Source: Spirosoma aerolatum (GTDB lineage Bacteria; Bacteroidota; Bacteroidia; Cytophagales; Spirosomataceae). From it: a stretch of 64,000 nt of DNA. Of this stretch, positions 10,054-19,803 are shown piece after piece. Position 1 is the first letter of the stretch. Each line of letters opens with the position of its first letter. The notes under the pieces are model-generated. The model worked only from the letters and a program-made list of their open reading frames with translations, searched no databases and had not been told where the DNA came from. The position numbers and the translations under genes are program-made. Location of the stretch: NCBI RefSeq assembly GCF_002056795.1, contig NZ_CP020104.1, positions 7,325,501 through 7,389,500 of the forward strand, read 5' to 3'.

Positions 10054-11166
10054 CTAGTGCAGCACTTCCATCTCCATTAATTCACTGAACATTTCCTGAC
10101 CTAAGAGGTCCTCAACCGACTCTACCTCTGAAAGATTTAGGAGCAAGTCCCGTAAATCTTCCGTAATCTCATAGGTCTGATATAATCGGCGGTCGTACAG
10201 AATAGGTGCCTCTTCCAGATCGCATAGCGTATAGCGGTTTTCATTGAAAGCAACCTGCTTCCGGTAACCCATATACGTCTTCTTTGTTTTTTCCGGCTCT
10301 AAAAACAGGTGCACATAGTTCCAGCCTTCCCACTGGCCTGGATACTGCTTCAGAAACGGCCAGAACGCATCGTACAATTGTTGCATAGCTTCCTGGCAGT
10401 ATAACTCCCGATCACTCTGTGGAATCGGCTTGATCGACTTCAGGCAGTGTAGCACATTGGCCATATCGGACCGACGATAGCTAACGACAGGTACGATTGG
10501 TACGCCCGCAGCGTGCGACAGGTAACCAACTCCTTTCCGGGTGAGCATCCGACGATGTCCAAAGCGTACAGAAAGAAATTGGGATTCTTCGCCGGGTTTA
10601 GGACCCGTTTCGGGGCTCCCATCGACGTACACAATCAGCGACCGACCTGCTTTTAATTCCCGTAGCACCGTAAGCCCAGCCGTAGGACTTCCGGCTTCAA
10701 CCACCCGAAACACATTAGTAAGGCCATGTTTTTGTCGTAACCCCTCAATATGCTCGGCCATTCCGTCCCCCTGACTGCGATTCATGTTACTACCAACCAG
10801 CAGCACACAATCGACTCCCTTACGAAACAGCACACTGGTCAGCATCCGGTACGAACCGAGATGATAGGTGCAGTAAATCCGGGGACTATACTCTTTTTCG
10901 AGCAGATGATCTGCTCCACGCAACTTTACCAGATCACCAGCCGTAAGGCACTGCTGATCGAAGGATGTGAACATCTGCTGCAACAATAGCTCGCGGAACA
11001 ACGTATCATGTTCCTGACGGGGAATGGCAGGCAGCAGGTTCTCGACATTGGCCGAAAAAGTAGTGTATTTCATCAAATACCCCCGTTCTTTCTCCAGGTC
11101 GATCTGCTCGAAGTGGGCGCGACAACGCTCCAACTCCTGCTTGTAAAGTTGACGTGTGGTACGCAT
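10054..11166 (-). CDS. LpxL-like acyltransferase with a PqqD/RRE-like C-terminal tail
   Basis: 370 residues. The middle (about 90-290) resembles the LpxL/HtrB lysophospholipid acyltransferase family: a His-containing start motif (CTYHLGSYR, the usual H-x4-D with Arg in place of Asp by my reading), IVYVDGSPETG, then RFGHRRMLTRKGVGYLSHAAGVPIVPVVSYR, which matches the G-x-A-x-L-A-x-x-G-x-P-V-V-P pattern. The last 75 residues are not part of that fold and read like a PqqD-type RiPP recognition element: VAFNENRYTLCDLEEAPILY followed by YEITEDLRDLLLNLSEV and ESVEDLL. The gene starts 12 bases after a 58-codon peptide gene on the same strand. I infer acylation of that peptide or of a related substrate. 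The acyltransferase call is fair; the RRE call is by eye only. Confidence 0.65.
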   Translation of the reverse strand: MRTTRQLYKQELERCRAHFEQIDLEKERGYLMKYTTFSANVENLLPAIPRQEHDTLFRELLLQQMFTSFDQQCLTAGDLVKLRGADHLLEKEYSPRIYCTYHLGSYRMLTSVLFRKGVDCVLLVGSNMNRSQGDGMAEHIEGLRQKHGLTNVFRVVEAGSPTAGLTVLRELKAGRSLIVYVDGSPETGPKPGEESQFLSVRFGHRRMLTRKGVGYLSHAAGVPIVPVVSYRRSDMANVLHCLKSIKPIPQSDRELYCQEAMQQLYDAFWPFLKQYPGQWEGWNYVHLFLEPEKTKKTYMGYRKQVAFNENRYTLCDLEEAPILYDRRLYQTYEITEDLRDLLLNLSEVESVEDLLGQEMFSELMEMEVLH

Positions 11167-11178
11167 TTTGGTAAGAAA

Positions 11179-11355
11179 TTAAAGCGAGAAAACGGGTTTG
11201 GAGCTAACTAATCCATTAAACGTAACCTCCCATCCCGAGCAGCAGGGAGAACCTTCAGCTAAAAACTTTAAAAGATTGCCTGACTCAGACTTAGAGATTG
11301 GCTTAACTACATTTTTAACTGCTTGAGCTGGCTTGATAACGAATTGTTTTTTCAT
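11179..11355 (-). CDS. 58-residue peptide, possible RiPP precursor
   Basis: ATG at 11355, TAA at 11179. The first half is Lys-rich and leader-like (MKKQFVIKPAQAVKNVV, then KSESGNLLKFLAEG). The second half differs in character: SPCCSGWEVTFNGLVSS and a hydrophobic end KPVFSL. It has two adjacent Cys, Trp and no charged residues after Glu43 except one Lys. No signal peptide. It has a good promoter of its own and lies 12 bases before the acyltransferase with the PqqD-like tail, the layout of a precursor followed by its modifying enzyme. Core would begin near Gly35/Ser36 if the leader is removed after AEG. Not matched to a named precursor family. Confidence 0.6.
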   Translation of the reverse strand: MKKQFVIKPAQAVKNVVKPISKSESGNLLKFLAEGSPCCSGWEVTFNGLVSSKPVFSL

Positions 11356-11406
11356 GACTATTTGTAGCTTGTATTATTGATTAAGCTGTTGCTTGATTTG
11401 ATGATA

Positions 11407-11438
11407 CAAAGCTACTGGACCCTTAAAGGCCCTTCAAT
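11407..11438 (-). promoter_or_regulatory. Promoter of the peptide/acyltransferase unit
   Basis: On the minus strand a perfect -7 box TAGCTTTG (11407-11414) stands 20 bases after ATTG (11435-11438) as -33 element. Expected start near 11400 gives a leader of about 45 bases. A short inverted repeat ATGAC-N6-GTCAT (11437-11452) overlaps the -33 region and could be an operator. Confidence 0.6.
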
Positions 11439-11518
11439 GACAAAAAAGTCATGATTATTGATTGCAATTAGTTAAAATTTACCAGTATATTAGTCCGACT
11501 TTTGTGTAAGAGGCCCGC

Positions 11519-12523
11519 ATGAAGGAGATTCAAATTACCCGAGCTTTTTTAAAGAAGCCGTTTAACAGCGTCATAATACTACTAAGCATTGTAGCATTAA
11601 TTGAAGCTGTGGGTTGGTCTATTGCCTCTAATTCAAAACATAAGTTAGTTGATAAAGCAGGGGGAGCATTTCATTATATCGGCGTCCTTGTTAGTTCTCT
11701 ATTCATACCTGAGCTTTGCACATTATTGATTGTAATAGCTCTTACAAATATTTACCACAGAATTAGACACATAACTTCCATAGAAAACTCCTGGCCATCT
11801 ATCAGCCGCTATGAATTACGCTGTTTACCTATATTGCTAGTAGCATTTTGGGTTTTTAATCCGTTTACCCAAACTATTCGTTACTTTTTTGAACAATATC
11901 CCAACTATACACTAGCAAAATATTGGAATGATTATATTCTTTATACTTACACTTGGTCAACTTATTTTAAATACTTAGCTCCAGTTATTATTATAGGCTA
12001 CATAGCTATTAATATTTCTCTACTTAGGGATTATCTTAACCAGCGAAAGGAGGCTCAAGAGAAGGCAGAAGCCGATGCGGCAGAAGCTGCTCAGAAGTAC
12101 CTGGAGCTATCCGAAACGTTCTTACCAAAACCCACAGTACCTTCGAAATACCTAAGCTATCTCAAAGGCAAGGGTAATCAGGGAGAATTCGATTTCCCTG
12201 TCAACGAAGCGTACTACTTCACGGTGGAAGAACGTGCTTATTATGCCGAAACGATCAAAGAACGGTATATGGTCAATAAGACCATCAATGAATTGGAAGC
12301 GGAATTGGACCCTTCCCAGTTTTTCCGCATCAAACGCGATTATATTGTGAACCGACAAGCCGTTTTGCACTACTCCTATTGGGAAAACGGCAAATACATT
12401 GTTACGTTGAATAACCCAGGCCACCACGAAATCATCGTACCGCGTGTACGCATGCAGGAGTTCCGCGAGTGGCTGCAAGGCCGCGACCCAGCCGGTAAAC
12501 CCGAACACGCAAACGCCCTGTAA
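11519..12523 (+). CDS. Membrane-bound LytTR transcriptional regulator
   Basis: 334 residues. Four to five hydrophobic segments in the first 190 residues (about 18-34, 52-78, 98-116, 140-170) form an uncharacterised membrane sensor. A charged Ala/Glu-rich linker follows (QRKEAQEKAEADAAEAAQKY), then a LytTR DNA-binding domain at about 230-325 with NELEAELDPSQFFRIKRDYIVNRQAV and HEIIVPRVRMQEFREWLQ. There is no receiver domain, so membrane input probably replaces phosphorylation. It is divergent from the peptide/acyltransferase unit with 163 bases between them. A close but frameshifted paralogue lies at 18107. Confidence 0.88.
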   Translation: MKEIQITRAFLKKPFNSVIILLSIVALIEAVGWSIASNSKHKLVDKAGGAFHYIGVLVSSLFIPELCTLLIVIALTNIYHRIRHITSIENSWPSISRYELRCLPILLVAFWVFNPFTQTIRYFFEQYPNYTLAKYWNDYILYTYTWSTYFKYLAPVIIIGYIAINISLLRDYLNQRKEAQEKAEADAAEAAQKYLELSETFLPKPTVPSKYLSYLKGKGNQGEFDFPVNEAYYFTVEERAYYAETIKERYMVNKTINELEAELDPSQFFRIKRDYIVNRQAVLHYSYWENGKYIVTLNNPGHHEIIVPRVRMQEFREWLQGRDPAGKPEHANAL

Positions 12524-13055: not shown

Positions 13056-13391
13056 ATGACTAACCAATCGAATACCCTTACAACCAAATTAGCTTTATCG
13101 CCATTGGCTTCGCTGGTAGTGACCGCCCTCGAAGTGTCTGACATAAAAGAGATAGCCAATGTACCTACCCCCGTATTGCTGGCGTTGAGTACGCTTACTC
13201 AGCGTGAACTTGAGGTACTGCACCTAATCGCCAATGGATTAACTACGCGCCAGATAGCTGAACACCTCTTTACCAGCCCACATACGGTCAATAACCAGCG
13301 TGCTCAGATTTCGCAAAAACTAGGCTTGCAGGGCGCATTCAGCCTGTTGCAATTTTCCCAACGGTATCATAATATACTCACACAGCTATAA
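13056..13391 (+). CDS. Small LuxR-family HTH regulator without receiver domain
   Basis: 111 residues. The first 45 have no receiver fold. The C-terminal LuxR-type HTH covers about 46-105: LTQRELEVLHLIANGLTTRQIAEHLFTSPHTVNNQRAQISQKLG, with the usual E-x-E-V-L and T-V-N-x-x positions. It is a stand-alone DNA-binding module, as in some Bacteroidota orphan regulators. Preceded by the GTGATTTCA array, so it is likely a target of it, and followed by the large secreted protein. What it controls is not visible. Confidence 0.82.
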   Translation: MTNQSNTLTTKLALSPLASLVVTALEVSDIKEIANVPTPVLLALSTLTQRELEVLHLIANGLTTRQIAEHLFTSPHTVNNQRAQISQKLGLQGAFSLLQFSQRYHNILTQL

Positions 13392-13556
13392 AAAAGGTAG
13401 AACCTTACTATCCAAAATAGCAGACGCTTATCATGTGCTACAGCCTCCCACTTTTCACCTTTGTCTTGTTGACGCGCAACAAAGGCAGAAGCCGAAAAGC
13501 CTGAAAAAGAGTAGGCAAAGTGGTATTCTTTGGAGCAAAGCTCCATCAATAACCGC

Positions 13557-16430
13557 ATGAAAAAGCGTTACCAACCTTTAGTATATAACGGATTCGCAAT
13601 GCTGATCTTTCTGATCTCAATGCAAACGAGCTGGGCACAGTGCTCAGTGGGCAATCCACAAGGCGCCCTCGATTATGCCAATTGCAATGGCGTCGGAGGC
13701 TGGGCATTCGATAGGGCCAACCTCAACCAGACCATCACCGTTGACATCTACATCGACGGCGTGAAAACCTATTCCGGCATTCAGGCCAACGGCGACCGAC
13801 AGGACTTGGTAGCCGCCTTCGGCTCCACGGCCGCTCGCTACCACGGATTTTCCTTCAGCTTTCCTGCAAACGCCCCCTGGAAAAACGGACAGAACCACTC
13901 CGTTTCGGTGCGAATCTGCGGGGTAGCCAGCGAGTTGGGCGCTTCGCCCAAAACGGTCAATGGATGTTCGGGTGGCAGCCAGCCTTCTACACCTTCTAGC
14001 GGTTGCGCCTACACCGAAGGGCAGTTTCTATTCACCACCAGTTGGGGCGAATCGGTGTATGCCCACTATTACAATGGGGCATTATATGCTGGATATAAAG
14101 ATGGAAGTAATTTTAAACCCCAGCATTGGTTGACAGCTACGGGTATGATGACCTCCAGCACCGCCAGTTGTTTTGCTGAAAACGACCCCCATACTTCTAC
14201 CACAACCCCACCGACGACTAATCCACCTCAAAATAGCAACTGCACTTATACGGAAGGACAGTACCTGTTCACCTTCAATACGGAACGTATGTATGCTCAT
14301 TACTACAATGGGGTATTATATGCTGCCTATCAGGATGGTAGTAATTTCAGACCGCAACATTGGTTAACAGCCACGGGTCTAATGTCAAACAGCACTGCTA
14401 GTTGTTTTGCCGAGAATAACCCTCATAACTCTACCACAACTCCACCGACTACGACTAACCCAACTACTCCCTCAACACTGCCTCCAGCGCCTAGTAACCT
14501 GGCTGGAAATATGGATTGGGCTGATTGTAACAGTATTAGTGGTTGGGTTTTGAATAAGAATACACCGAATCAATCCACCAAAGTGGATGTGTATATCAAT
14601 GGGCATCTAGCCGCTTCCAATGTGCTGGCTGTCGTCAGTCGGCAGGATGTGGCCAACGCCTTTGGCATATCAGGGTTCAATGCCTTTGTCTTTAATTATA
14701 TATTTCCAGGCAAGTACAAAACAGGTGTGCCCTTAACCATCGGTGTTCGCTATGCAGGCACTCGTACCCACATTCCAGGTAGCCCTAAAACAACTCAAAC
14801 CTGCCCCAATAGCGGATTAGGGGGATTCCCTTCCTGTGGCAATCAGGTAGCGGGCCGCACTGGCTATGTCGATACTGAGTCAACGCCGAAGGGACGTTCA
14901 GGCATTAGCTCCCTTCAACTGAGGGCTAGCCGTTCAGGTCAGCCAGGTTCCATAACCAGCAAGTTGGTTCCTGTGCGTCAGGGTAACGAACTATCGGTAA
15001 CTGCCTTTGCCTACGCGCCAACTGTAACGAAACGGAACTTGACTCCCCAGCTAGCTACAGCGGTGGCCGGTGGCATCGTGGCCGGAATTACCTTAGCTAA
15101 TCAGCCTGCTGGGGCTACAGACCATCCTCTTTCTAAATCCAGACAGACCGTCCCAATGCTTGGATTAAGTACTGTTCTGGCGATCCCTTTGGTCAAGTTT
15201 TTAGTCGCTGATCGATTGCCCAAAGCAGGTATGGAATTGGCTTTCTATGACAAGCGGGGTAACTTTGTTCGTCGCCAGTCCGTGCATATTTCCAAAGCTG
15301 TCGGGCAGGATTGGGAGCTATTGATTCTGAAAGGAGATGCGCTTCAGGATGGGTTCGTAGCCTTACGGCTAGAAAATGCCAGTAAAAACCCTGTCTGGTT
15401 TGATCAGGTAAGCTTGGAACGTACTTCTCACAGACTTTCTGAGTCAGTGGCAGTAGGCCATTTTTCTCCTCAGCCCTCTCTCTCTTCAAATGGGTTTGCT
15501 CGTTCGATAGTACCTAGCGACCTAACTATTGCGGGTACCGAGAATTGTGCAGGAGTAGGCGGAGGTGGGGGTAGTCCAACTCCCTCAGATGATAATACTT
15601 TACCAGAAGTAACTGTAACAGCCAGTCATTGGGAAGATATTGACGTACAACATTGGGGTGGTGATGATTGGAGTTTGGATACGCCAACGTTCCCGGAAAT
15701 TTCGGATATCGGCACCCCAGTGAGCGATGCAGATAATAATAATAGTGGAGCAGGAGAGCAAACTAATGAGCCAAGTAAAGCTGATAGTATTAATAGCTCA
15801 CAATTAAAACCTTGTATGAAGATAGTTTTATATTCTCTTCTTTCTGGCTCTCAAATTTCAGATATAATTAAGAAATTTTCTGGAACAGAAAAGGATTATA
15901 ATTGGATATTAAAGGACGGTAGATTAGGCGCAAATTCAAATGCAGAAACTAAATCATACGATAGAGTAAACCGTTCTGTCACCACGACTTTCGATACAAA
16001 TAAATTTGCTGATGCTACTGATTTATCTATTGCAAGAACAATTCTTCACGAATCAGTACATGCTTATTTAGTTACTTATTTTGCATCAGACCCACTAATG
16101 GCTAACGCAGATTATCCAGATATGGTCGTTGCGTGGATGGGAGTGAAAAGGCCAGATTTAAATCAAATTCACCATGATGAAATGGTACAATCGTTTATTA
16201 GCGATATTGCATCCGAATTGAAATTTTATGGAGAAAGCAAAGGGTATGTGATAAGTGACGATTACTATTTCAAGCTTGCTTGGGGAGGTTTAGAAAATAC
16301 TAACGCCTTTAAAAGTCAATCAAGTATTACACAAGCTGCAACTAAAGATGTGATTCGAATCGAGCTTACTGGCAATAAAACCGACGGTTCGCCTTTCACT
16401 CAAGTTGGGACTAAAACAGGTTGCCCTTAA
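13557..16430 (+). CDS. Large secreted modular protein with C-terminal HExxH metallopeptidase-like domain
   Basis: 957 residues from ATG 13557; nine upstream in-frame codons look spurious because a clean signal peptide begins at MKKRYQPLVY and ends near SWAQC. Order: a Cys-bounded beta domain (GALDYANCNGVGGWAFDR), two copies of a 60-residue YTEG-Q-LF...HYYNG-LYA-Y-DGSNF-PQHWLTATG module joined by Thr/Pro linkers, a second copy of the first domain (MDWADCNSISGWVLNK), then a carbohydrate-binding-like beta region (about 460-640) of the kind seen in Bacteroidota Rhs-type proteins. After a low-complexity linker the last 200 residues change to AT-rich coding and hold LHESVHAYLVTYF, a HExxH zinc motif. 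I read it as a polymorphic toxin-like or surface protease with an exchanged tip. Two small secreted or anchored proteins follow. Confidence 0.7.
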   Translation: MKKRYQPLVYNGFAMLIFLISMQTSWAQCSVGNPQGALDYANCNGVGGWAFDRANLNQTITVDIYIDGVKTYSGIQANGDRQDLVAAFGSTAARYHGFSFSFPANAPWKNGQNHSVSVRICGVASELGASPKTVNGCSGGSQPSTPSSGCAYTEGQFLFTTSWGESVYAHYYNGALYAGYKDGSNFKPQHWLTATGMMTSSTASCFAENDPHTSTTTPPTTNPPQNSNCTYTEGQYLFTFNTERMYAHYYNGVLYAAYQDGSNFRPQHWLTATGLMSNSTASCFAENNPHNSTTTPPTTTNPTTPSTLPPAPSNLAGNMDWADCNSISGWVLNKNTPNQSTKVDVYINGHLAASNVLAVVSRQDVANAFGISGFNAFVFNYIFPGKYKTGVPLTIGVRYAGTRTHIPGSPKTTQTCPNSGLGGFPSCGNQVAGRTGYVDTESTPKGRSGISSLQLRASRSGQPGSITSKLVPVRQGNELSVTAFAYAPTVTKRNLTPQLATAVAGGIVAGITLANQPAGATDHPLSKSRQTVPMLGLSTVLAIPLVKFLVADRLPKAGMELAFYDKRGNFVRRQSVHISKAVGQDWELLILKGDALQDGFVALRLENASKNPVWFDQVSLERTSHRLSESVAVGHFSPQPSLSSNGFARSIVPSDLTIAGTENCAGVGGGGGSPTPSDDNTLPEVTVTASHWEDIDVQHWGGDDWSLDTPTFPEISDIGTPVSDADNNNSGAGEQTNEPSKADSINSSQLKPCMKIVLYSLLSGSQISDIIKKFSGTEKDYNWILKDGRLGANSNAETKSYDRVNRSVTTTFDTNKFADATDLSIARTILHESVHAYLVTYFASDPLMANADYPDMVVAWMGVKRPDLNQIHHDEMVQSFISDIASELKFYGESKGYVISDDYYFKLAWGGLENTNAFKSQSSITQAATKDVIRIELTGNKTDGSPFTQVGTKTGCP

Positions 16431-16431
16431 C

Positions 16432-16487
16432 ATAACAACTATTGTTGATGGTATATACAATTATATACCATCAACAATAGTTGTTAT
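16432..16487 (+). terminator. 26-bp perfect hairpin after the secreted protein gene
   Basis: 16432-16457 pairs perfectly with 16462-16487 around a CAAT loop, one base after the stop codon, followed by an A/T-rich stretch (ATTTTTAC). Strong terminator candidate; it separates the secreted protein from the small gene at 16503. Confidence 0.75.
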
Positions 16488-16502
16488 AAGATTTTTACAA
16501 TT

Positions 16503-17000
16503 ATGACATTAACCCATTTTTTTTCTGCAAAAGTACTATTAGTAGCAATCATGAGTTGCTTATATATCTATAGAATTAACCAATACTTTTTTTATAGATA
16601 TAAGAAAAGTGATAGCAATTTCTATTCTAGACTGCTTAATAGCAAACTTGAAAACAGAGAATTAACGTTTACTCTTTTAAAGAATGTTCAAGATAAAACT
16701 ATTGGGAGATATACTCTGGTAAAGAGAAAAAATAATACCTCGTTCTGTTTTATAAAAGGTCAAATTTTTGACAAAGAAACGGGCGAATCCCTGAAGATAG
16801 CTGCTGTCGAAGTTAAACATAAAATAATAAATGCAGATACTAACGGGCTTTTTTCCTTTAAAGTCTTACCTGGCAACTATAAAGTGACAGGATTGTGCTA
16901 TCCATATCATAGATTAACAACTAAAACAATAAAAGTTAAAGCAGGCGAAACTATTAATATAAACTTTTGGCTATTAATTGATAAAATTCCATTAGAATAA
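16503..17000 (+). CDS. Membrane-anchored protein with carboxypeptidase-regulatory-like domain
   Basis: 165 residues, AT-rich. A hydrophobic N-terminus (about 8-25) is followed by a Lys/Asn-rich stretch. The C-terminal half (about 80-160) has the pattern of a carboxypeptidase regulatory-like (CarboxypepD_reg) beta sandwich: IKGQIFDKETGESLKIAAVEVK, ADTNGLFSFKVLPGNYKVTGLCY, TIKVKAGETININF. Enzyme role not apparent. Being the first gene after a toxin-like protein, it could be an immunity or accessory protein, which is inference only. Codon use matches the AT-rich tail of the gene upstream. Confidence 0.65.
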   Translation: MTLTHFFSAKVLLVAIMSCLYIYRINQYFFYRYKKSDSNFYSRLLNSKLENRELTFTLLKNVQDKTIGRYTLVKRKNNTSFCFIKGQIFDKETGESLKIAAVEVKHKIINADTNGLFSFKVLPGNYKVTGLCYPYHRLTTKTIKVKAGETININFWLLIDKIPLE

Positions 17001-17034
17001 GTTAATAAATTTAGGGCTTACGCAAAAGTGGTAA

Positions 17035-17220
17035 ATTGAGATCAAAAATAGCCTGAAAGTCACTGCACAACTTTACGGGCAGTTTCTGCTAAGTAGCCAG
17101 ATCAATTATACGGCTACCTACTTGACTGATCACTTGGAGAGGATTTAGGGGTAAAGAAGGGTCAAATAAGTACCGTGTCTTTCTGACAGAAGAAAAGTTT
17201 AAACAGCTTCTAAGTATAGA
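17035..17220 (+). pseudogene. Remnant of an IS transposase
   Basis: A short frame from 17035 to a stop at 17146 reads LKVTAQLYGQFLLSSQINYT and then ATYLTDHLER, close to the N-terminus of IS701/IS4-type transposases I associate with Spirosoma. A second frame just after it (KYRVFLTEEKFKQLLS, stop near 17227) could be a C-terminal fragment. The preceding GGGCTTACGCAAAAGTGG (17013-17030) may be one IS end; no matching right end was found. Looks like an internally deleted, dead copy. It fills most of the 295-base gap between 17000 and 17296. Confidence 0.4.
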
Positions 17221-17295
17221 ATACTAACATTCATAAAACTAAATCTCCATAATCTTATAAATATATATAAACAATACTTTAAAATACGAAAGATA

Positions 17296-17883
17296 ATGAA
17301 GCTCCAACAAATCCTTAAAATTACCTTTTTGATGTCTTTTTTTTCTTTTTGGGTATATGCTCAAGAAGGCTATCCACCCCCTTGTAATGAAATTAAGGAG
17401 GTGAAGCTTGCTACTGATCCAGTCAAAAAGAAAATTCTATTTCAATATATACAAGACTGCCTTCATAATCAATCCTTTAACACAACATATGATAAAGGAA
17501 TTATTAATCTATATGAATATAAAAATAGTCAGAATCAACTGTGTTGGCTTTTGTTTGCCCAGATCGACGACAGTTATAAGGATAACCCACCTACTCGTTT
17601 TTCTGATTTTCAGGGGGAAATAATTTTGATTTACGATGCTGACTCAACAGGACGAGTATTAAAAACATCAGGAGATAAAGCATCTCTAAATCGATGTTTA
17701 GAGCAAATTATTGGGGATCGAGTATTCATTCGTCCAACCATAAAAACAAGATGGACAAGTTCTGTGCTGCCGGATAATGAAAAGCGAAAAGAAGGGAATC
17801 ATAGATGGGTGACTGGGGGCGGAGGAGCAGTTATTATCCGTTTTAATAAAGATGGCAGTTATAAAATCTCTCCTTTGGGGTAG
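17296..17883 (+). CDS. Secreted hypothetical protein
   Basis: 195 residues, unrecognised. Signal peptide at 1-22 (ITFLMSFFSFWVYAQ). The mature part has three Cys, a beta-rich centre (QLCWLLFAQIDDSYKD, FQGEIILIYDADSTG) and a Gly-rich end (TGGGGAVIIRFNKDGSYKI). AT-rich like the two genes before it. A periplasmic or surface role follows from the signal peptide; partnership with the toxin-like protein at 13557 is a guess from position. Ends at a strong hairpin. Confidence 0.6.
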   Translation: MKLQQILKITFLMSFFSFWVYAQEGYPPPCNEIKEVKLATDPVKKKILFQYIQDCLHNQSFNTTYDKGIINLYEYKNSQNQLCWLLFAQIDDSYKDNPPTRFSDFQGEIILIYDADSTGRVLKTSGDKASLNRCLEQIIGDRVFIRPTIKTRWTSSVLPDNEKRKEGNHRWVTGGGGAVIIRFNKDGSYKISPLG

Positions 17884-18106: not shown

Positions 18107-19097
18107 ATGAAAGAAATTCGAATTACACGGGCTTTCCTGAAAAAGCCGTTGAACAGTATAATTTTACTAACAGTAATTTATCTTTTCTTTGAAATTATTT
18201 CTTGGTATTTTGGCTATAAACACAAGATTATCCAGGTTGAACGTCTTGGAGGGTGGGTAACCTATACATATTTAGTCCTAAAAGTCATGCTACTCCCAGA
18301 GGTTTGTACTGTTTTGATTTTCTTCTATTTGATAAATCGATCCCATCATTTGTTTAATCTACATGCTGTCAATAATACTTTAAAATCTATAATACGATAT
18401 GAATTATGTTTCTTACCTGTCATCTGTCTATCATTCTTCGTCTTTAATCCAATTACCCAAACCGTACGTTATTTTTCTAGAAGCAGGGCCTATTTATTCT
18501 TGGCAAGCGTATTGGGAGGGATACATTATATATACTTATAGTTGGAAAATATACTTTCAATATTTAGTACCTCTCTTATTAATTGGCTATATAGCTATTA
18601 ACATTTCGCTTCTGAAAGATTATCTTTATCAACAGAAGCAAATAGCGAAACTTAAAGCAACAGAGGCTTTCCAAAGAGGACAAGCTTCGTGGCCCCTTGC
18701 AACTTTCAAATCTTATTCCACTGCATCATCTCCTTATTTAACCTCCCTAAAAGGCCGAAATGCACAAGGTGAATTGGACTTTCCAGTCAAAGATGTTTAT
18801 TTCTTCACCATCGAGGAGCGATTGTATTACGCCGAACTAGCTAAAGGTCGCTACCTTATCAGTAAAACCCTGAATGAACTCGAAGCCGAACTAGACCCTG
18901 GCCAGTTTTTCCGGATCAAGCGGGACTACATTGTCAATCGACAGGCAATACAAAGCTATGCTCATTGGGAAAATGGCAAATACATTGTCGGACTCAATAC
19001 CCCAACAAGTCAGGATATAGTGATTCCACGCATGAGGATGCAGGAGCTTCGTGAGTGGTTGCAGAAAGAAAATAAAGAATTACTTGAAGTAAGATAA
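18107..19097 (+). pseudogene. Second membrane LytTR regulator, broken by a frameshift
   Basis: Paralogue of the gene at 11519; both open MKEI-x-ITRAFLKKP. Frame one runs 18107-18541 and covers the membrane part up to TQTVRYF. The rest, from LEAGPIYSWQAYW through the LytTR domain (NELEAELDPGQFFRIKRDYIVNRQA), is in the next frame and ends at 19097. The break falls at a run of five Ts (18472-18476); removing one T joins the frames without loss compared with the intact paralogue. Either a recent one-base insertion, a sequencing error, or phase variation. All catalytically neutral regions and the DNA-binding residues look intact, so it was functional until recently. Confidence 0.8.
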
Positions 19098-19107
19098 CCT
19101 ATCTAAC

Positions 19108-19803
19108 TCACAGATAGTTTTTTACAGATATACCATAGCGGGGTAACTCCCGACAGCTTTTCAGGTTTAGCTTCCGGGCGATATGCGCCTTGTGGTTTAC
19201 TGCTGTCCGATAGCTAATATTTAATCGTTCAGCAATATCAACGCAGGTATCCCCGTTTGCAATCATACGCAATACTTCGCGTTCGCGGTCGGTCAACCGA
19301 TTTAGCTCCTCGCGCGTATCGTCGGAAATGACATTAACGCCGAAATTCCGCAACAAATCCATAAAACCGTTGCTATAGTAGCAACCGCCATTACTAACCG
19401 TCTGGAAGCAGCGATAGAGTTCATCCAGGCCGTCGGAGGCATAAAGGAAGCCAAAAAAGCCCTTTTGCATAGCATAGGCGATGGTACGCAGATCGGGCTT
19501 ACGGGTGTATAAAATAAATCGGGTTTGCTGATTGGCGCTTCGGGTTTGCTCTACGATATCCAGACTACCCTGTCCTGAAATTTCTGATTCGACAATAACG
19601 CACTTGGGGCGTTTGACGCGAATCTGCTGTAGGGTATCTTCCATCTCGACCGCCCGGCCGACGACATTATACCCTTGTTCCCGTAAAAGCTGACTTAAGA
19701 CCTCGCAGTTGAATAACTCCGATTGGGCGACGAGAATAGAGAAGTCTCGCCTGCGAATAGCAAAGTTTTTAGTGCCCTCCTGGACACCAGTTGATTGGTT
19801 CAT
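19108..19803 (-). CDS. NarL/FixJ-type regulator with an atypical receiver
   Basis: 231 residues. Receiver-like domain at about 20-140, LuxR-type HTH at about 165-225 (LTDREREVLRMIANGDTCVDIAERLNISYRTAVNHKAHIARKLN). The acidic pair expected at the first strand is replaced (ILVAQSELF), and the phospho-acceptor position in PKCVIVESEISG is Glu72 instead of Asp. Glu there mimics phosphorylation in some systems, so this is probably a phosphorylation-independent pseudo-receiver. No histidine kinase is nearby. Upstream lie a GGTAACACCA direct repeat and the six-copy GTGATTTCA array, shared with the divergent gene at 20120. Converges on the broken LytTR gene with a 10-base gap. Confidence 0.85.
   Translation of the reverse strand: MNQSTGVQEGTKNFAIRRRDFSILVAQSELFNCEVLSQLLREQGYNVVGRAVEMEDTLQQIRVKRPKCVIVESEISGQGSLDIVEQTRSANQQTRFILYTRKPDLRTIAYAMQKGFFGFLYASDGLDELYRCFQTVSNGGCYYSNGFMDLLRNFGVNVISDDTREELNRLTDREREVLRMIANGDTCVDIAERLNISYRTAVNHKAHIARKLNLKSCRELPRYGISVKNYL

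Follow-up and report, generated by a model that had tools for sequence, protein, structure and literature searches.

Could a short peptide encoded just ahead of an LpxL-like acyltransferase gene be the substrate of that enzyme, and, if so, what would the lipidated product be for? We addressed this question at a locus of Spirosoma aerolatum that lies within a stretch of 64,000 nucleotides (the window), in a genome consisting of a single 7.96-Mb contig. An earlier note on this DNA had described a 58-codon gene located 12 bases before the acyltransferase (AT) gene; both open reading frames are found there, on the minus strand and with that spacing, and their pairing is above chance. The features of the locus, in window coordinates, are as follows.

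10054..11166, minus strand: LpxL-like AT of 370 amino acids (NF005120, PF03279 in its relatives, AlphaFold2)
10057..10257, minus strand: C-terminal RRE-like domain of the AT, residues 304-370 (AlphaFold2, beta-beta-beta-alpha-alpha-alpha)
10297-10926, minus strand: predicted core of the AT, residues about 81-290
10861-10863, minus strand: codon for H102 of the AT
11179..11355, minus strand: precursor-like peptide of 58 amino acids (conservation and purifying selection)
11182-11265, minus strand: second part of the peptide, containing Cys-Cys and Trp
11266-11355, minus strand: leader-like residues 1-30 of the peptide
11356..11518, no strand: divergent intergenic region
11407-11414, minus strand: TAnnTTTG box upstream of the peptide gene
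11519..12523, plus strand: one-component membrane LytTR regulator (PF04397, 5.4e-21), with the DNA-binding domain at residues 227-319
11519-12034, plus strand: membrane domain of the LytTR regulator, residues about 1-172 (hydropathy; covariation with the peptide within residues 1-160)
18107..19097, plus strand: second LytTR copy, frameshifted, in two overlapping open reading frames (144 and 232 amino acids), adjoining F1
19108..19803, minus strand: F1, a LuxR/NarL-type regulator by reading, with an apparently degenerate receiver

The peptide is conserved beside the enzyme. A peptide of the 58-residue type is encoded upstream of the AT gene at 71 of 71 main-clade locus ids, which amount to 59 distinct loci; 12 loci with AT identity below 32.5% (L074-L085) were dropped ahead of this count. 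Loss of the frame next to the AT gene in relatives, the outcome that the earlier note had named as speaking against its proposal, was thus found at none of the 59 loci, and two or three peptide copies stand in tandem at 7 of them. A Phe near position 5, the Glu of a K/QxE motif and a Cys are each present in all 59 distinct peptide sequences, and Cys-Cys in 50. The leader-like half follows the pattern F..I....K...AKxE..L, and FSL forms the C-terminal end of 27 of the 59 peptides, spread over different allele groups. The dN/dS ratio was below 1 in all 44 usable pairs, with a median of 0.15, the usable pairs, 44 of the 62 computed, being those without a difference in length, with an identity of 55% or more and with a dS of 0.02-1.5. 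The precursor-like architecture noticed earlier, a leader-like half followed by a Cys-Cys/Trp half, is therefore conserved and under purifying selection. A spurious open reading frame is ruled out by the upstream conservation, the dN/dS values and the profile matches across genomes. In a 28-row alignment, the second part has a single invariant column whose residue is a nucleophile, and this residue is Cys. We regard this Cys as a candidate acyl acceptor and as a lead only, because Ser or Thr occurs somewhere in the second part of 59/59 peptides and Lys in 53/59.

The peptide, the AT and the LytTR regulator also travel together. In a set of 200 genomes from the family, 65 have a match to the AT, 61 to the peptide profile and 67 to the LytTR. 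The peptide genomes are the AT genomes minus four (G005, G052, G077 and G080) that carry distant AT paralogues only; LytTR is present in all 61 peptide genomes and in six more genomes without the peptide. Among the matches listed for these 200 genomes, the peptides adjoin the AT by contig and coordinates. As the peptide profile was built from AT-derived loci, its presence beside the AT is partly by construction; its absence elsewhere is not. The earlier note had proposed a search for the same pair in other genomes, and the peptide and the AT clade occur together in 61 of the 200; the precursor-enzyme pair expected of a RiPP is accordingly seen in 61/61 genomes with the AT clade and at 59/59 distinct loci. 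The order F1, LytTR (divergent), peptide, AT is kept at every one of the 39 main-clade locus ids, representing 37 distinct loci, whose sequence spans 8 kb or more. Flanks downstream of the unit change between genera, and L052-L073, whose flank is unlike that of Spirosoma, retain the unit intact, which rules out that it is a chance neighbour of a housekeeping gene. The twelve named AT relatives are Spirosoma or Fibrisoma. No exporter or protease gene lies in the peptide-AT-LytTR unit.

We examined the family to which the enzyme belongs. The window AT itself has no Pfam match, and its match to NF005120 (6.3e-5) falls short of the cut-off set for that model. PF03279 (lipid A acyltransferase) is matched by 21 of 46 AT relatives, with E values no higher than 10 and a best value of 1.9e-9, and through these members the LpxL-like core that had been proposed is borne out. 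No GNAT family appears among the profile matches of the window proteins or of the 46 AT relatives, and the AT profile gave 0 matches to sequences of solved structures. AlphaFold2 modelled the whole AT from the 46 sequences with a pLDDT of 89.8. H102, D182 and W279 are invariant in 46/46 relatives and a QWExW block nearly so, which suggests that the active site has been retained. The AT clade does not carry the HX4(D/E) motif of LpxL and PF03279: the position five residues after the His is Arg (R107) in 42/46 relatives and D or E in none of the others, whereas HX4D/E is seen in L101-L103, which are more canonical LpxL homologues from within the order. Judged by sequence, HX4R deprives the catalytic His of the acidic residue that normally partners it, and this counts against acylation by the enzyme.

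The enzyme also has a C-terminal extension, which the earlier note had taken for a PqqD-type domain of about 75 residues. The extra domain stands, with a length of about 67 residues (304-370). It is predicted to form three strands and then three helices, both in the model of the whole AT and when modelled alone (pLDDT 93.5), a topology judged on predicted secondary structure only. Three strands followed by three helices is the element order of PqqD-type RREs. The structure prediction that had been suggested as a check therefore returned the RRE order, and not the lack of an RRE fold that would have spoken against the proposal. Sequence profiles tell less. Against 26 PqqD sequences, the tail had an hhalign score of 12.3, a value that 2 of the 16 windows taken across the AT exceeded and that 5 of 100 column shuffles reached; adding six distant tails brought no improvement (L083 was left out of the tail alignment), and PqqD is absent from the 17 families listed for the 46 AT members. 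The tail profile matched solved-structure sequences in two weak and unrelated cases only (E 0.43 and 3.3). Between the tails of AT paralogues and the N-terminal domains of the M50-type proteases encoded at their loci there is a weak match (E=0.0034, prob 9.6), and these M50 domains match PqqD better (E=7e-5, prob 62.6); for window-type tails against the M50 domains, prob was 0.5. The tail is thus RRE-like by its predicted element order, and its PqqD homology from sequence profiles is not significant; the score is no better than that of control segments, and the paralogues supply a weak and indirect link.

Relatives of the AT occur outside the family as well. With an E-value limit of 1e-10, the AT profile hits 43 of 390 genomes in the order; G358 and G487 have weak hits only, which we read as ordinary LpxL (L102 and L103), and this leaves 41. 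In the phylum, with a limit of 1e-20, it hits 5 of 395 genomes. A distant relative lies beside a full LanB (PF04738, PF14028) in L091 and beside a Lant_dehydr_N protein in L076. Radical SAM proteins with a SPASM domain accompany it in L092 and L105, M50-type proteins in L085, L092, L093 and L105, and relatives of GwsG (TIGR04192) and GwsS (TIGR04193) in L093; tandem small open reading frames with one common motif lie near it in L084. The Pfam LanB, Pfam radical SAM, SPASM and thiopep_ocin models matched above their cut-offs. Most NCBIfam matches lie below the curated cut-offs (for example 202 bits for GwsG, where 230 are required, 128 for GwsS, where 175 are, and 82-105 for the daptide protease, where 300 are), and by these scores the neighbours are relatives, not members, of the families. 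The labels ketosynthase, dehydratase, PPTase and ammonia-lyase, the GwsG-like gene of L100 and the rSAM-like gene of L099 come from sequence reading. Neighbourhoods were read for loci other than L097 and L098, and those of L094-L096 and L104 contained no RiPP genes. Because RiPP-type loci surround several distant AT relatives, acylation of the window peptide by its AT is likely.

Some neighbourhoods had further features. At L076-L083 and L091, AT paralogues are clustered with genes that read as ketosynthase-, ketoreductase-, dehydratase- and PPTase-like, several of these clusters also having a lantibiotic-dehydratase-like protein; they are candidate fatty-acid/RiPP hybrid loci. In L084, the region between about 2.8 and 1.4 kb ahead of the AT gene has four tandem small open reading frames and a similar fifth one, with the motif EGLYVVALEERLETVELAAEAAYTSCV; they precede an M50-like protein and the AT and are likely multi-copy RiPP precursors. 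L105 has a 47-residue open reading frame with a LEERLEL motif and a Cys-rich end, 207-63 bases upstream of the AT gene, between it and the radical SAM gene. In L075 and L074, an M50-like protein (F36) is encoded close to the AT paralogue, and a TonB-type receptor-like gene follows downstream; no precursor was found there.

The third member of the unit is transcribed divergently. The earlier note had recognised it as a divergent membrane LytTR regulator, and it is one; the suggestion that it could control the unit understates its part, as membrane domain and peptide diverge together (below). TAnnTTTG, presumably the Bacteroidota -7 element, occurs within 170 bases upstream of the peptide gene in 57 of 59 distinct regions. 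In many Spirosoma loci, a TGACTTTTTxxCGATTGATG-like stretch precedes this box and is a possible regulator site. In relatives, F1 flanks LytTR on the side away from the peptide gene; in the window, it stands 6.6 kb beyond LytTR, behind an insertion. A second LytTR copy beside F1 is intact in L147 and broken in L148, and such copies suggest that the receptor gene has been duplicated and lost. The insertion between the two copies (13056-17883, plus strand; a similar insert is present in L147) contains a small LuxR-type HTH gene, a gene for a secreted-looking protein of 966 residues and small genes. Eleven other loci (L135-L144 and L152) encode stand-alone homologues of the LytTR membrane domain, of about 180-200 amino acids and lacking the DNA-binding domain. 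We found no peptide of the 58-residue family in these stretches; the solo proteins are possibly decoys, immunity proteins or partner proteins.

We then compared alleles at 44 pairs of loci with AT identity of at least 85%. Between the window and L006/L007, the AT is 98% identical and the C-terminal 140 residues of LytTR 96-97%, whereas the membrane domain (first 172 residues) is only 56-58% and the peptide 48-52% identical. Similarly, L008/L009 and L010/L011 share 90-93% in the AT and 86-91% in the LytTR C-terminal part, against 62-65% in the membrane domain and 53-59% in the peptide. The DNA tells the same story: between the window and L035, identity stays at 0.92-0.96 in the DNA-binding part and at 0.88-0.97 along the AT, and it drops to 0.49-0.76 within a stretch of about 1 kb. 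It also dips between L009 and L011 (0.56-0.80), and between L035 and L036 it does so in the membrane domain only (0.77-0.87). Peptide and sensor thus co-diverge while the output domain is conserved, as in ComQXP-like loci. Two comparisons do not fit: L043/L044 have peptides 98% identical and membrane domains only 82% identical, and L066-L068 against L070 have membrane domains of 94-95% and peptides of 83% identity. The window membrane domain is closer to L008/L009 (71%; AT 83-84%) than to L006/L007 in spite of the AT, suggesting allele exchange or an old shared polymorphism.

A partial Mantel analysis of 37 Spirosoma/Fibrisoma loci (21 of 58 were left out, with AT below 60%) gave r=0.44 (p=0.0005) for peptide and membrane domain given the AT and the C-terminal part, r=-0.02 (p=0.53) for peptide and LytTR C-terminal part, and r=0.15 (p=0.016) for peptide and AT, the permutation p values not fully removing phylogeny. 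Along LytTR, the correlation with the peptide is 0.27-0.49 at residues 1-160 and then about zero. Along the AT, it is 0.37 at residues 1-37, 0.21-0.37 overall at residues 1-112, -0.05 at residues 113-149 and 0.23-0.30 in the tail (residues 301-370). Covariation at the start of the AT may be linkage; that of the tail fits binding of the leader, as far as sequence can indicate. Linkage as the sole cause of the peptide-LytTR covariation is less likely, because the adjacent AT residues 1-37 reach r=0.37 while the distant LytTR residues 41-160 reach 0.39-0.49; in the window, the former lie 12 bases from the peptide gene and the latter several hundred. Co-divergence with the membrane domain points to a receptor and to a signalling role of the peptide. 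Both halves of the peptide contribute, the leader-like half (r=0.40; 0.35 given the second half) more than the second half (r=0.28; 0.18 given the leader-like half). The mature signal may include part of the leader-like half, or linkage may contribute to this excess.

Conservation of the genes, their co-occurrence, the LpxL family of the AT and the co-divergence of peptide and membrane domain are demonstrated, and the reading that best accommodates them, which we place just short of an even chance, is a lipidated peptide signal sensed by a one-component membrane LytTR receptor; acylation, export and signalling are what we infer. The RRE-like tail of the AT would bind the leader-like half of the peptide, and the enzyme would move an acyl chain from a donor, acyl-ACP or acyl-CoA, onto an acceptor in the second half, perhaps the invariant Cys. 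The lipidated and probably processed (trimmed) peptide would reach the envelope or be exported from the cell, where the matching LytTR membrane domain would act as receptor; the putative targets of the LytTR protein would be the peptide-AT operon and other genes. Several observations count against this reading, among them the unit's lack of an exporter or protease gene, the non-significant PqqD homology and HX4R. Also, neighbouring peptide and LytTR genes could co-vary by linkage as an exchanged block, the link with the membrane domain is stronger for the leader-like half than for the second half, contrary to what a receptor of the second half would predict, and the FSL end is common to different allele groups. 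A broader reading, which we hold more tentatively, makes the locus a Bacteroidota pheromone system with pherotypes, an RRE-tailed LpxL-type AT and a LytTR receptor, and makes the AT family a general RiPP-lipidating enzyme in LanB, graspetide-like and radical-SAM pathways, mostly in Cytophagales.

A lipidated RiPP might instead serve another end, as an antimicrobial, a surfactant or an envelope component, with LytTR regulating the operon and no cell-to-cell signalling; the LytTR membrane domain would then sense the product or give feedback or immunity. The natural-product-type loci of AT relatives (LanB with fatty-acid-type genes, graspetide-like, rSAM), the solo membrane-domain proteins of several genomes, which resemble an immunity or decoy module, and the tandem precursor copies agree with such a role. 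We nevertheless consider it unlikely, given a minimal unit, kept in 61 of 200 genomes, that lacks a transporter, a protease and a further maturase, and given co-divergence with the membrane domain of a transcriptional regulator, which is most typical of signal-receptor pairs. It is improbable that the AT acylates a lipid or small acceptor, with the peptide a regulator or membrane peptide of a lipid pathway rather than a substrate. Known acceptors of the LpxL family are lipids, the AT core falls in that family, and L094-L096 are devoid of RiPP genes as read; gene order, the leader-like peptide with its invariant F, E and Cys, the RRE-like tail and the RiPP-type loci around several AT branches argue the other way. 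It is very improbable that catalysis has been altered in this LpxL homologue so that it binds or carries the peptide and acylates nothing; R107, where L101-L103 have D or E, speaks for such a change, whereas H102 and D182 are invariant and QWExW is nearly so, which suggests a retained active site.

How does a lipidated peptide signal with a LytTR receptor compare with known systems? In ComQXPA of Bacillus, an isoprenyl transferase modifies ComX, and the locus is polymorphic, with strains falling into pherotypes (PMC4008528, PMC4408185). The window unit is similar in having a small precursor beside a lipid-group-adding enzyme, a membrane receptor and a polymorphic locus. ComQXPA has as its own the isoprenyl transferase ComQ and the histidine kinase ComP with a separate response regulator, whereas the window unit has an LpxL-like enzyme little changed between alleles and a one-component LytTR candidate receptor, and belongs to Bacteroidota; with an LpxL-like AT and a LytTR regulator in place of an isoprenyl transferase, a ComP kinase and ComA, it falls outside the ComQXP family. 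GNAT enzymes acylate lanthipeptides such as microvionin, selidamides and nostolysamides, and goadvionins and lipoavitides are N-lipidated RiPPs (PMC13060382). Common to these and the window unit are a ribosomal peptide and a dedicated acyltransferase in a gene cluster. Where PMC13060382 names the enzyme, the fold is GNAT; the window AT has an LpxL-type core with an RRE-like tail and matches the LpxL-type family, which sets it apart from GNAT-lipidated RiPPs, and unlike GNAT-lipidated lanthipeptides it has no adjoining lanthipeptide synthetase. DAG-RiPPs are likewise lipidated ribosomal peptides of Bacteroidota; their precursor has a signal peptide and is acted on first by an MNIO enzyme and afterwards by Lgt, LspA and Lnt, according to a paper that also mentions a Spirosoma endophyticum cluster (PMC12636315). 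The window peptide differs from that precursor in that no signal peptide or lipobox is apparent by inspection: the longest apolar run in its residues 1-30 is 3, and for this lack of an apolar signal segment we rejected the lipoprotein route. From LpxL-family lipid A acyltransferases (PF03279), with which it shares its core family, the AT differs by HX4R for HX4D/E, its extra C-terminal domain and the adjoining peptide gene. The titles and abstract openings that we searched, a scope outside which most subscription papers lie, named no LpxL-like RiPP acyltransferase and no peptide-AT-LytTR unit, and a term search found no "acyltransferase" in the main text of the graspetide paper PMC8939145.

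If the proposal is true, a second enzyme fold would be added to RiPP lipidation, and the wider AT family would flag candidate lipidated-RiPP clusters for genome mining. Bacteroidota would gain a lipidated peptide signal that comes in allele groups. As near relatives whose ATs are 98% identical and whose peptide and sensor alleles differ, L035 (Spirosoma panaciterrae) and the window strain would then constitute a ready natural experiment.
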